Assembly (NCBI RefSeq): GCF_034120055.1
Contig: NZ_CP139368.1
Location: 1,736,001 to 1,800,000 of the forward strand
From: Microbacterium rhizosphaerae
GTDB lineage: Bacteria; Actinomycetota; Actinomycetes; Actinomycetales; Microbacteriaceae
Direction: 5' to 3'
DNA length: 64,000 nt
The notes under the pieces are model-generated. The model was given only the letters and a program-made list of their open reading frames with translations. It was not told the DNA's origin and searched no databases. This document shows, in pieces, positions 3,903-47,942 of this stretch; position 1 is the first letter of the stretch, and each line of letters opens with the position of its first letter. Both the position numbers and the translations under genes were made by a program.

Positions 3903-4167
3903 GGTCAAGTCCCTTTTCGTGGTGTAACTCGGGCTATGCGGTGAGGATGAGCTCGGCGTGGGGGTGTTCGGTGTCGTCGTGGAGGGTGTGGACGAGCCGG
4001 CGCATGGACGTGTCGGAGAAGTAGCGGCGTTCCCCGTACTGCCATTCCTCGTGCTGCTCCTGCAGGACCGCGCCGATCAGGCGGGTCACGGAGTCGCGGT
4101 CGGGGAAGATCTGCACGACGTCCGCGCGACGTTTGATCTCCCGGTTCAGCCGCTCGGTGGGGTTGTT

Positions 4168-4430
4168 ACCGGGTATGAAAGTCGTGGGTGCCTCACGTGT
4201 TCGTCTGGCTGGCTGGGTCCTCGGGCTTGGTTCTACGGTGAGACCGTCCGGAACAGGGGCTCCTAGGGAAATCGGTATGGGCAGGCCGTTCTTGATCGAT
4301 GGGCTGAGCGCCCGAATTGTTAGATGGCCGCCCTTGCGACTTGTCCGGCTGCGCCGTGAGCGCGAATCCGTAGGTGTCGGTTGCCCAACCCTTTCCCGCC
4401 TCAAAGAACGAGTGGGGAGAGGAACGCATC
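4168..4430 (+). ncRNA. Non-coding left end of IS110 element, candidate bridge RNA region
   Basis: About 263 bp between the left end and the transposase start has no convincing open frame. In characterised IS110-group elements this position gives rise to a structured bridge RNA whose two internal loops pair with target and donor DNA. Local complementary stretches exist, for example around ACGGTGAGACCGTCC and GGTTGCCCAACC. I could not derive the loops or show a match to the target by eye, so the exact RNA ends and fold are unknown. The call rests on position and family knowledge. Confidence 0.5.
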
Positions 4431-5684
4431 ATGCCGAGATTCATCGGTTTGGACGTGCACCGCGACTTCGCGCAGATCGCGATCGTCGAGGCCGGGGTGG
4501 TGGTCGATGCCGGCAGGGTGGATTGCCGGCCGGAAGCGCTGCGGGCGTGGGCTGCTCAGCTGACCGTGGATGATCAGGTCGCTTTGGAGGCGACGGGCAA
4601 CAGTGACGCGATCGCTGGACTGTTGTCACAACACGCGGGACGGGTGGTGGTGTCCAACCCGCTGAAGACGCGTGCGATCGCGGAAGCGAAGATCAAGACC
4701 GACAAGGTCGACGCGAGGATCCTCGCGCAGCTGCTCGCGGTGGACTTCCTGCCACCGGTCTGGCTGCCCGATGATCGCACCGCGATGCTGCGACGGATGA
4801 GCACGGCGAGAGCGAGTCTGGTCAGACAGCGCACGCAGACCAAGAACCGGGTGCATGCGGTGCTGCACCGGAACCTGATGCCGCGGCCACCTGCCACAGA
4901 CCTGTTCGGCAAGACCGGACGGGCATGGCTCGAGACGCTGCCGCTGCCGAAGGACGAGCAGGACGCGGTCACGTCGCTGCTGCGACAGCTCGACTTCCTC
5001 AACACCGAGCTCGCCGCGGCGGACCGGGCGATCGCGCAGCAGGTGGTCGGCGACCAGGCGGTGCGCAGGCTGATGACCATCCCCGGCGTGGACGTGATCG
5101 TCGCGGTATCGATCATCGCCGCGGTCGGCGACTTCTCCCGGTTCGAGTCTCCCGACAAGCTCGTGGCGTATCTCGGGCTGCATCCGAAGGTCCGGCAGTC
5201 GGGGAACTCACCGGCGATCCACTCCCACATCACCAAGACGGGACGTGCGTCGACGAGAGGGATGCTGGTCGAGGCGGCATGGGTCGCGGCGAAAGCACCC
5301 GGACCGCTGCGGGCGTTCTACCACCGCGTCAAGAACCGGCGCGGGTTCCAAATCGCCGTGGTCGCGACCGCGCGCAAGATGCTCGTGCTCGCCTGGCACC
5401 TGGTCACCAAGGACGAGGACTACGCGTTCGCCCGGCCCAGCCTGGTCGCGTTCAAGCGCCGCAAACTCGAGCTGGCCGCCGGCGCCCCGAGAGACTCCCG
5501 CCGCGGAGCGGGCTACGACTACAACGACAAGCAGCTGCGCCGTTTCGAACGAGAACTGGTCCAGAAGAGCGAGCAGGCCTACGAACGCCTCGTCGCAAGC
5601 TGGCAACCATCCCGGCCGGCGGGCGCCGACCGGATCGACTTCCACCCCACCCCCGAGACGGAGACCACACCCGCGAGGACTTGA
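4431..5684 (+). CDS. IS110-family transposase (DEDD recombinase)
   Basis: A 417-residue protein starting at the ATG at 4431 after a GGGGAGAGG ribosome site. The RuvC-like N-terminal domain shows the DEDD residues: D8 in FIGLDVHRD, E53 in ALEATGNS, and D91/D94 in TDKVDARILAQLL. The C-terminal transposase domain (residues about 213-300) contains IPGVDVIVAVSIIA, LVAYLGLHPKVRQSGNS and HITKTGRASTRGMLVEA. The Ser of RQSG (about residue 257) is a candidate for the catalytic serine. Length and motifs are intact, so the enzyme is probably functional. It cuts and rejoins DNA guided by an RNA in the best-studied relatives. It lies on the strand opposite to the interrupted IS256 transposase. Confidence 0.93.
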   Translation: MPRFIGLDVHRDFAQIAIVEAGVVVDAGRVDCRPEALRAWAAQLTVDDQVALEATGNSDAIAGLLSQHAGRVVVSNPLKTRAIAEAKIKTDKVDARILAQLLAVDFLPPVWLPDDRTAMLRRMSTARASLVRQRTQTKNRVHAVLHRNLMPRPPATDLFGKTGRAWLETLPLPKDEQDAVTSLLRQLDFLNTELAAADRAIAQQVVGDQAVRRLMTIPGVDVIVAVSIIAAVGDFSRFESPDKLVAYLGLHPKVRQSGNSPAIHSHITKTGRASTRGMLVEAAWVAAKAPGPLRAFYHRVKNRRGFQIAVVATARKMLVLAWHLVTKDEDYAFARPSLVAFKRRKLELAAGAPRDSRRGAGYDYNDKQLRRFERELVQKSEQAYERLVASWQPSRPAGADRIDFHPTPETETTPART

Positions 5685-6849
5685 CTATTTCATCCGTCGA
5701 CCACACCTTCTGCCAGTGCTCCCGGGGCAGCACCGCGAACCCGGTGAGGTCGGGTTCGGCGGCCTCGAGCATGACGGTGATCTCCGGGAACGAGGAGCGG
5801 AGGCTGTCGGTGACCTGGTGATACTGCGCGACCACCGCCTCGGCGGTGGTCTGCGCGAAGATCGTGGAGATCAGCGCGTTGACCGGCTTGGAGCGTGCAG
5901 AGCCGAGGCGCTGGGTGACGTTGCGGGCGAAATGGACCCGGCATCGTTGCCACCCGGATCCGGGCAGGATCGCTTTGACCGCGTTCTTGATGCCGGCGTG
6001 CGCGTCACTGGTGACCAGCGTCACCCCGAGCGGGTCGGCGTCGGTGGCGACCTTCAACCCCCGGTCGCGGAGGCTGCGGAGGAACTCGGTCCAGAAGTCG
6101 ATCGTCTCCGCGTCGCCGAGCGCCATCCCGAGGATCTCCCGCCGCCCCTCCCCGCTGACCCCGGTGGCCACCACGAGGGCTTGGGAGACGACATGGCCGC
6201 GGACCCGGACATCGAGATAGGTGGCGTCCAGGAACAGGTACGGGAACCAGGTGTGATCGATCCGGCGATGCAGGAACTCGTGCACCGACTCGTCGATCTC
6301 CGCGCAGATCCGGGACACCGTGGACCGGGAGATGCCGGTGTCGTTGCCCAGCGCCCGGACCAGCTGGTCGACTTTGCGGGTGGAGACCCCGTCGATCCAG
6401 GCCTGGCAGATCACCGCGTAGAGGGCCTTGTCGACCCGGCGCCGCGGGGACAGCAGCGACGGGAAGAATGAGCCTTCGCGCGGTTTCGGGATCTGCAGGT
6501 CGACCTCCCCGGCCGGGGTCGCGAGCGTCTTCGGACGCGTCCCGTTGCGGCGGGTGGTCCGCTCCGCAGTGCGTTCGTGCGGGGCGGCACCGATCCTGAC
6601 CGTCGCTTCCGCGTCGATCAGGTCCTGCAGGCCGGCCTGCAGCATCCGCCGGAACACGTCCGAATGCGCGAGGTCGGGGTCGGCGAGAACTTCTGCGATC
6701 AGGGTCGTCAAGGCAGACTGGGTGTGGGTCATCGTGGGATCTCTTCTTGCTTCTTGGCGGAAACAGACAGGGTCCTCCCACGATGACCCATCTACGTCAA
6801 CAACCACGAGGACCCCGCAGGAATTGACACCACGCTAAGAGACGCACCC

Positions 6850-47409: not shown

Positions 47410-47841
47410 ATGCTGTTGGGCACGCACACTCCCAAGCTCGATGACAAAGGCCGGGTGATCCTCCCCGCGAAGTTCCGCGACGACCTCGGCAAGGGCGTCG
47501 TCGTCACGCGAGGTCAGGAGCGCTGTCTGTACGTCTTCAGCACGGCGGAGTTCGAGCGCGTCCATGAGCGCATCCGCGAGGCTCCGCTGAGCAACAAGCA
47601 GGCACGCGACTTCATGCGCATGTTCCTCGCCGGCGCGAGCGCCGAGACCCCCGACGGCCAGAACCGCATCACCATCCCTCCGCAGCTTCGTCAGTACGCC
47701 GGGCTCGACCGCGAACTCGTGGTCACGGGCGTCGGGGCGCACGCGGAGATCTGGAACGCCGACGCGTGGAACGCCTACGCCGAGGAGAACGAATCCGGTT
47801 ACGCAGAACTCGAGCAGGAGGTGATTCCGGGCCTGTTCTGA
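47410..47841 (+). CDS. mraZ: Transcriptional regulator MraZ
   Basis: A 143-residue protein with two tandem SpoVT/AbrB-like half-barrels: [26 protein letters not shown] and, at about residues 80-105, [21 protein letters not shown]. Each holds the DxxGR/NRITIP motif. The ATG at 47410 follows GGTTTGG without a strong ribosome site. MraZ octamers bind spaced TGGG repeats and repress the division cluster. Such repeats occur at 47344-47368. It is followed by rsmH after 101 bp. Confidence 0.95.
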
Positions 47842-47942
47842 TCCTGGGCTGTGATCTCCACCCGCTCACGCCCTGACGCCACTTCCCCGGCGCCAGGTCG
47901 GGACGGTGGGGGATCAGGGTTCAGGATCCCGCCCCGACGCCG

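Follow-up and report, generated by a model that had tools for sequence, protein, structure and literature searches.

The bridge-RNA or seekRNA mechanism has been published for IS621 and ISEc21 (PMC11208160, PMC11187229; both papers are cited throughout from the excerpts available), and RNA-guided IS110 elements are already known, as is the targeting by ISEc21 of the catalytic codons (second Asp) of certain IS3 transposases. According to the excerpts of PMC11187229, the complement of the top strand comes first in IS1111 elements and the order is the reverse in the IS110 element ISEc21, and exceptions in RNA placement are mentioned with ISMtsp17. In the window, by which we mean the whole stretch of 64,000 nucleotides of Microbacterium rhizosphaerae DNA that was analysed, an IS110-family element covers positions 4168-5697 on the forward strand, a net insertion of 1530 bp. 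The original prediction was that its long left end likely encodes a bridge RNA, and sequence comparison supports this: the left end very probably makes a guide RNA that directs the element to one spot in the transposase genes of other elements. Comparative evidence that the element belongs to an RNA-guided recombinase is strong, and beyond the known kind of RNA it is the guide layout and the choice of target that appear unusual.

The ends of the element could be fixed from copies and from empty sites. Three copies are present in the 4.06-Mb genome, with no differences within the element, and it leaves 263 bp before the recombinase ATG (4431) and 13 bp after the stop (the gene ends at 5684), in exact agreement with the approximate figures given before. 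At the left junction the TT of the target is retained as core (4166-4167), and at the right junction the core is GT (5696-5697), which is also encoded by the donor loop. When ten other loci with an IS256-type relative (L121-L130) were compared against both window flanks, nine (L121-L127, L129 and L130) matched both, with a spacing that fits the junction 4167|5698 in all nine; the flank matches abut exactly in four, leave one base unaligned beside the junction in three and, in the two more distant sites, leave four bases unaligned by the junction with the number still right, while L128 matched neither flank. Four of these empty sites (L123, L124, L126, L127) read GG(A/G)TTG-TT-CGACCA. The pre-insertion sequence had been deduced earlier from the disrupted IS256 frame, and L124 and L127 indeed read GGGGTTGTTCGACCA, the same empty site. 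The window copy and the copy at L005:5220 split two different IS256-type genes at the same place, as the C-terminal part in the window starts at model position 300 and the N-terminal part at L005:5220 ends at 299. The two further copies in the window's genome (at L005:1562 and L005:5220, within L005:700-3091 and L005:4360-6749) lie 3.66 kb apart and have identical open frames and a common left flank including an IS256 end; their right flanks differ, and the IS256 gene continues only beside the second, which looks like a rearrangement at the right end of the element.

The recombinase gene (4431..5684, forward strand) encodes 417 aa with the domains DEDD_Tnp_IS110 (PF01548, 71.2 bits) and Transposase_20 (PF02371, 82.3 bits), both above cut-off. 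The protein is related to IS621 and ISCro4, both of which it matches among PDB proteins, and was aligned to IS621; in an alignment of 18 sequences that includes the window's, D8, D91, D94 and S257 are invariant and E53 is nearly so. A protein-database search gave E <= 1e-60 for 6971 of 8000 scored candidates. We take ATG 4431 as the start because of the alignment and a ribosome-binding-like sequence, a likely Shine-Dalgarno found by eye at about 4414-4422 of the same strand, and rejected GTG 4374, which would open a frame of 436 aa overlapping the donor loop. In a protein tree of IS621, one further Rhodococcus IS110-type protein and the relatives found here, built without an IS1111 reference, IS621 forms a long branch and the clade is assigned to neither the IS110 nor the IS1111 group.

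Relatives were collected from tblastn hits with E <= 1e-40 that start within the first 12 query residues and have a left end of at least 150 bp; left ends identical over their last 150 bp were counted once, which removed further copies, for example in L005, L007 and L100. From 71 rows, 16 without a recognisable target loop and six without a usable left-end start (the second place in L014, L019, L026, L047, L140 and L152) were removed, leaving 49 elements, 33 of them with a right end. In 18 of the 49 the start of the left end was assigned by hand, after guide and flank were seen, and the right ends of L099, L106 and L176 were picked by hand; the guide tests gave the same result without hand-set ends. 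A genus-wide search of 149 genomes found the element in the window's genome only, with short matches in 45 others, and at 1e-60 a class-level search of 394 genomes again returned only the window's genome. Across the phylum (396 genomes) three others joined it at 1e-90, the class of G554 (385 genomes) gave one at 1e-100, and viral contigs gave one relative, which was left out of the element set. A more distant branch (L033, L035, L036, L038, L039, L040, L046) has left ends of about 140-165 bp, which start near (T/C)ATGNAA and are without the target-loop pattern used here.

Comparison of the left ends points to a putative bridge RNA in which an outer stem (5' strand 4266..4283, 3' strand 4381..4397, all on the forward strand) closes over two stem-loops, a target-binding one (4284..4333, an outer stem plus an inner hairpin at 4301-4314), delineated by RNAalifold and a pairing-conservation test, and a less certain donor-binding one (4336..4379), whose guides are invariant or weakly covarying. 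Among 26 aligned left ends, the window's included, 23 pairs in four helices (stem and hairpin of each loop) are paired in 99.8% of cells, with changes on both sides in six of the 23. None of 500 shuffles was as high on four of five measures; on the fifth, which counts further pair types, 111 of the 500 were. Sliding the partner by 1-3 columns lowered the pairing to 33-49%. The outer stem, in the window GGGAAA..GGT.TGGGCA with TTGCCC.ACC.TTTCCC, was assessed with own against swapped partners in the 46 of 49 elements in which both strands were locatable: the mean duplex energy was -31.85 kcal/mol with the own partner against -29.22 with swapped ones (z -5.2, 0 of 5000 permutations), the own partner being the very best in one element only, with a median rank of 8.5 of 46. 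A single-sequence fold of 4236-4405 was no better than shuffles (z 0.26), and the claim of a structure therefore draws on the comparison. Covariance folding across homologous left ends, proposed together with the original prediction, thus found a conserved secondary structure and not the lack of one that had been named as contrary evidence. An RNAalifold run on the whole left end paired the first bases of the element with its 3' part and missed the outer stem, and these pairs were not used. Rfam 15 gave no match within the left end up to E = 1; elsewhere in the window it matched mraW RNA at 47836-47936 (55.2 bits, gathering 50).

Directly beside the inner hairpin of the target loop lie two candidate guides, TTGATCG on its 5' side (4292..4298) and AATTGTT on its 3' side (4315..4321). 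The latter has the same sense as the left flank plus core, GGTTGTT (5/7), and so would pair with its bottom strand; in the window element both guides match at 5/7, one mismatch falling in a Trp codon. Across the family, the left end was scanned with a 7-nt frame whose offsets were counted from the target hairpin, in both senses and with flanks permuted among elements; the left junction was defined in 49 elements and the right one in 33, and up to 185-200 offsets were covered in each of the two senses. For the left flank plus core, the same-sense match peaks directly 3' of the hairpin (4.78/7 against 3.44; z 9.3, 0/2000, n=49), and for the right flank the reverse-complement match peaks just 5' of it (4.15 against 2.27; z 9.1, 0/2000, n=33). 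The next best offsets have z < 4, and as some of these (z 3.3-3.7) also reach 0/2000, relatedness inflates the permutation test and it is by their size alone that the two peaks stand out. The expectation that one loop is complementary to both flanks of the target is thus borne out across the family, with z about 9 on each side. Single elements may deviate, with L010 (an element without the Glu motif described below) at 5/7 left and 3/7 right, and L013 at 1/7 left in the fixed register, where by eye the guide sits two bases off. Upstream of the IS110 gene in L168 (reverse strand), the unit of 5' guide, hairpin and 3' guide is tandemly duplicated, possibly a snapshot of guide duplication or change.

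The interrupted gene in the window is an IS256-family transposase gene on the reverse strand. Its C-terminal part (3937..4167; PF00872 profile positions 335-378, NF033543 from 300) begins N-N-P-T-E with the Glu codon at 4153-4155, and its N-terminal part (5698..6732; PF00872 profile positions 19-334) ends ..HWQKVWS, the start codon near 6732 being chosen by eye. Read antisense from the junction into the left flank, the fifth codon is a Glu in 31 of the 49 elements, and within the first 12 codons of either strand no other codon or frame has a Glu in more than 8. When the C-terminal parts of all 31 were scanned against NCBIfam with E up to 0.01, 30 matched a transposase family model (IS256, IS6, IS66, IS481 or IS21), the 28-residue piece of L177 giving no match at this limit. 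Within each family the alignment always starts at the first residue of the piece and enters the model at a single position, namely 300 for IS256 (18/18), 161 for IS6 (5/5), 229 for IS481 (4/4, with weaker IS3 matches too), 330 for IS66 (2/2) and 227 for IS21 (a single case); as fragments, none of the pieces reaches its curated cut-off, and among the IS256 matches there are five weak ones (E 0.0007 to 0.008). Beside L005:5220, the N-terminal part matches IS256 above cut-off. A Pfam scan, in which one member may match several models, covered 42 of 49 C-terminal parts (at least 30 residues) and 25 of 33 N-terminal parts, with Transposase_mut 12, DDE_Tnp_IS240 5, rve_3 4, rve_2 3, IS66_C 2, IS66 2 and three singles for the former, and Transposase_mut 14, MULE 9, rve 4, IS66 3, IS240 3 and then smaller counts for the latter. 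Lys or Arg occurs at Glu+7 in 26 of the 31, a spacing typical for the catalytic Glu of DDE transposases. Together with what is known of DDE transposases, this motif makes the Glu in register the putative catalytic one of each family. The target as an IS256 frame, as first proposed, therefore holds for the window and not as the sole target, the clade using one codon position in several transposase families.

The remaining 18 elements have no Glu in register. They include L183, by eye an IS256-type site with one base missing, L168, which sits in an IS3-type gene ahead of the point where its match ends, and the relatives from planctomycetes and acidobacteria, with T-rich or other left flanks. Relatives from Planctomycetota and Acidobacteriota (L014-L023) form a sister branch with the same kind of target loop, and several of them carry 3' guides rich in T (CTTTTTTAAC or the like), matching left flanks that are T-rich too and lie outside the Glu motif. 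Position by position, the left guide matches at 3, 81, 100, 87, 29, 87 and 100% for positions 1-7 (31 elements; third codon positions are 2 and 5) and the right guide at 56, 76, 72, 40, 72, 64 and 8% (25 elements; third codon positions are 1, 4 and 7). Matching is poor at four of the five third codon positions but good at left 2, and the lowest value of all falls on left 1, which is no third codon position; left 1 and right 7 are taken as outside the guide. A register four codons before the Glu, together with several of the poor matches lying at third positions, could mean that the guide in effect follows a protein motif and not one gene. As regards the target preference only, the Glu register might instead be a by-product of a fixed GTT-rich core that the recombinase favours and that happens to occur there, with insertions in transposase genes simply tolerated, which would agree with the GTT or GTTNNT kept in most guides and with the planctomycete relatives whose T-rich guides sit outside such motifs. 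We regard this as less likely than not, although more probable than the other two alternatives; it sits poorly with the exactness of the register (codon 5 in 31 of 49 against 8 at most elsewhere), with the single model position at which each transposase family is entered, and with the match of the 5' guide to the codons before the junction, which is found within IS256 targets too.

Agreement between guides and flanks might also be inherited, related elements sitting in related transposase genes by shared descent and not by pairing. Guides and target classes are common to many elements, the permutation leaves relatedness in, some unrelated offsets also gave 0/2000, and with IS256 targets alone the left-flank test was not significant (2162/20000, n=18). 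Nevertheless, the agreement peaks exactly beside the hairpin, and it holds in 18 elements with dissimilar guides (left z 6.7, right z 8.3; 0/20000 each), in elements without the Glu motif (left z 5.4, n=18; right z 5.2, n=8; 0/20000 each), for the right flanks within IS256 targets (z 3.4, 15/20000, n=16) and, to a lesser degree, in the remaining targets with the Glu motif (left z 2.4, 246/20000, n=13; right z 3.1, 54/20000, n=9), so that we consider descent as the sole cause very improbable. Computer-assigned ends alone gave left z 6.1 (n=31) and right z 9.6 (n=30), and the right flank with both ends computer-assigned gave z 6.9 (n=20), with 0/20000 in each case. Slightly less probable still is that the left end, which lies directly before the gene and has strongly conserved stems, serves as a protein-binding recombination site or cis-regulatory mRNA leader while the protein chooses the target, as neither gives a reason why, on either side of the target hairpin and in the sense expected for each, the letters should vary with the flanks of the element itself.

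The second loop is likely the donor loop. Its 3' guide ATCCGT (4366-4371) equals the right end ATCC|GT, and its 5' guide TCCGG (4344-4348) faces the left end ACCGGG. The donor hairpin was recognised in 40 of the 49 elements, nine being without it, which allowed the left end to be analysed in 40 and the right end in 29. The right-end match (mean 5.97/8 over 29 elements) is invariant, with z 0 and no covariation, and the left-end match (4.70/6 over 40 elements) reaches z 3.3 (5/3000), with other offsets giving higher z. A further loop complementary to the element ends, as anticipated, is therefore likely, and as its complementarity is mostly invariant it gives weaker support than the target guides. 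In the predicted circle junction the core GT would lie between TTTCATCC and ACCGGG. Such a closure would bring the -35-like TTGACT of the right end (5681..5686) in front of the -10-like TATGAA (4174..4179, both on the forward strand), which then precedes the RNA; the resulting promoter-like arrangement TTGACT-17-TATGAA across the presumed junction of right and left end recurs in 22 of 33 elements.

The observed ends, empty site, gene family, conserved structure, guide-flank covariation, guide order and target genes are best explained as a whole, with a probability of about 0.88, by a bridge RNA with reversed guides that leads the element to an IS256 site here and mostly to Glu-codon sites across the clade. 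After excision and circle closure, the junction promoter TTGACT-17-TATGAA would drive transcription of the left end and then of the recombinase gene, and the transcript would be processed to a bridge RNA of roughly 130-200 nt, whose outer stem closes a multi-branch loop holding the target-binding and donor-binding stem-loops. Bound to the DEDD recombinase, the target loop would pair with the two strands of its site in an IS256-family transposase gene, its 5' side with the top strand of the right flank and its 3' side with the bottom strand of the left flank, while the donor loop would pair with the joined element ends, and strand exchange would take place at the two-base core. Within the clade the guides differ and would mostly lead to the codons that directly precede what appears to be the catalytic Glu of DDE transposases. 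We see about even odds for the more far-reaching proposal that this is a large clade, with IS110 layout and IS1111 guide order, specialised in disabling transposons and retargeted among at least five DDE families in one register with third-position mismatches.

Among open PubMed Central papers, viewed as titles and abstracts, neither a clade keeping a Glu register across several transposase families nor upstream RNAs with reversed guides was found described, and the available parts of PMC12500396 and PMC2516522 likewise contain no description of either. The analysis offers a worked guide-target assignment for a clade whose guides are opposite to those of IS621, so that the reading rules of IS621 would swap left and right. 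It is a sign that bridge RNAs may be retargeted in nature and suggests that the guides of some insertion sequences are directed to a conserved segment of competing transposases, a site that the host cell can presumably spare. As the clade has many relatives, further sequence-based testing is feasible.

As a control for the guide order, an IS621 copy was fetched and its guides were read. In its target loop, ATCGGGCCT on the 5' strand corresponds in sense to the left flank ATCAGGCCT, and the reverse complement of the right-junction sequence ATCTACGCA occurs on the 3' strand, an order in agreement with the excerpts of PMC11208160. The order in the clade of the window element is the opposite of that in IS621, where the left flank is matched by the 5' and the right flank by the 3' loop strand. 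As in the IS110 group, the RNA lies in the left end, upstream of the gene (263 bp left against 13 bp right), but the 5' strand of the target loop does not show the pairing with the bottom strand of the left flank found in that group. The complement of the top strand lies 5' of the bottom-strand match, as in the IS1111 group by the definition excerpted from PMC11187229, but no downstream RNA fits into a right end of only 13 bp, and in place of subterminal inverted repeats of 7-17 bp the longest shared word is ATGAAA (6 bp). The element thus combines IS110 placement with IS1111 guide order. It has both domains, the DEDD residues and C-terminal serine, and probably the long structured non-coding end with target and donor loops, the donor part being weaker, that mark the broad family; as it departs from the IS110 group in one feature and from the IS1111 group in two, we file it only in the IS110 family at large.

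Among the known systems, IS621 shares with the window element the DEDD recombinase with Transposase_20, an upstream RNA in the left end, a target loop before the donor loop and a two-base core, and differs, beyond the guide order, in that its consensus RNA has a 5' stem-loop and two further stem-loops (excerpts of PMC11208160), whereas in the window's clade an outer stem closes both loops. ISEc21, as far as the excerpts of PMC11187229 describe it, resembles the element in its upstream non-coding region and in a target inside a DDE transposase gene at catalytic codons, there for the second Asp of certain IS3-family transposases; it differs in having one target family and an Asp, whereas the window's clade has a Glu, and its guide order, reported as opposite to that of IS1111, is hence opposite to that of the window element. 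The IS1111 group (ISEc11, ISKpn4, ISPa11) shares the guide order (excerpts of PMC11187229 and PMC11208160), and the closed multi-branch layout resembles the multi-loop reported there for many IS1111 RNAs, whereas those RNAs usually lie downstream and the terminal repeats measure 7-17 bp, against an upstream RNA and 6 bp in the window. ISMch4 (a name taken from the annotation of plasmid pAMS5b, L119) falls into the same clade by protein and RNA and is inserted in an IS481-type gene before its Glu codon, a target family that differs from that of the window.
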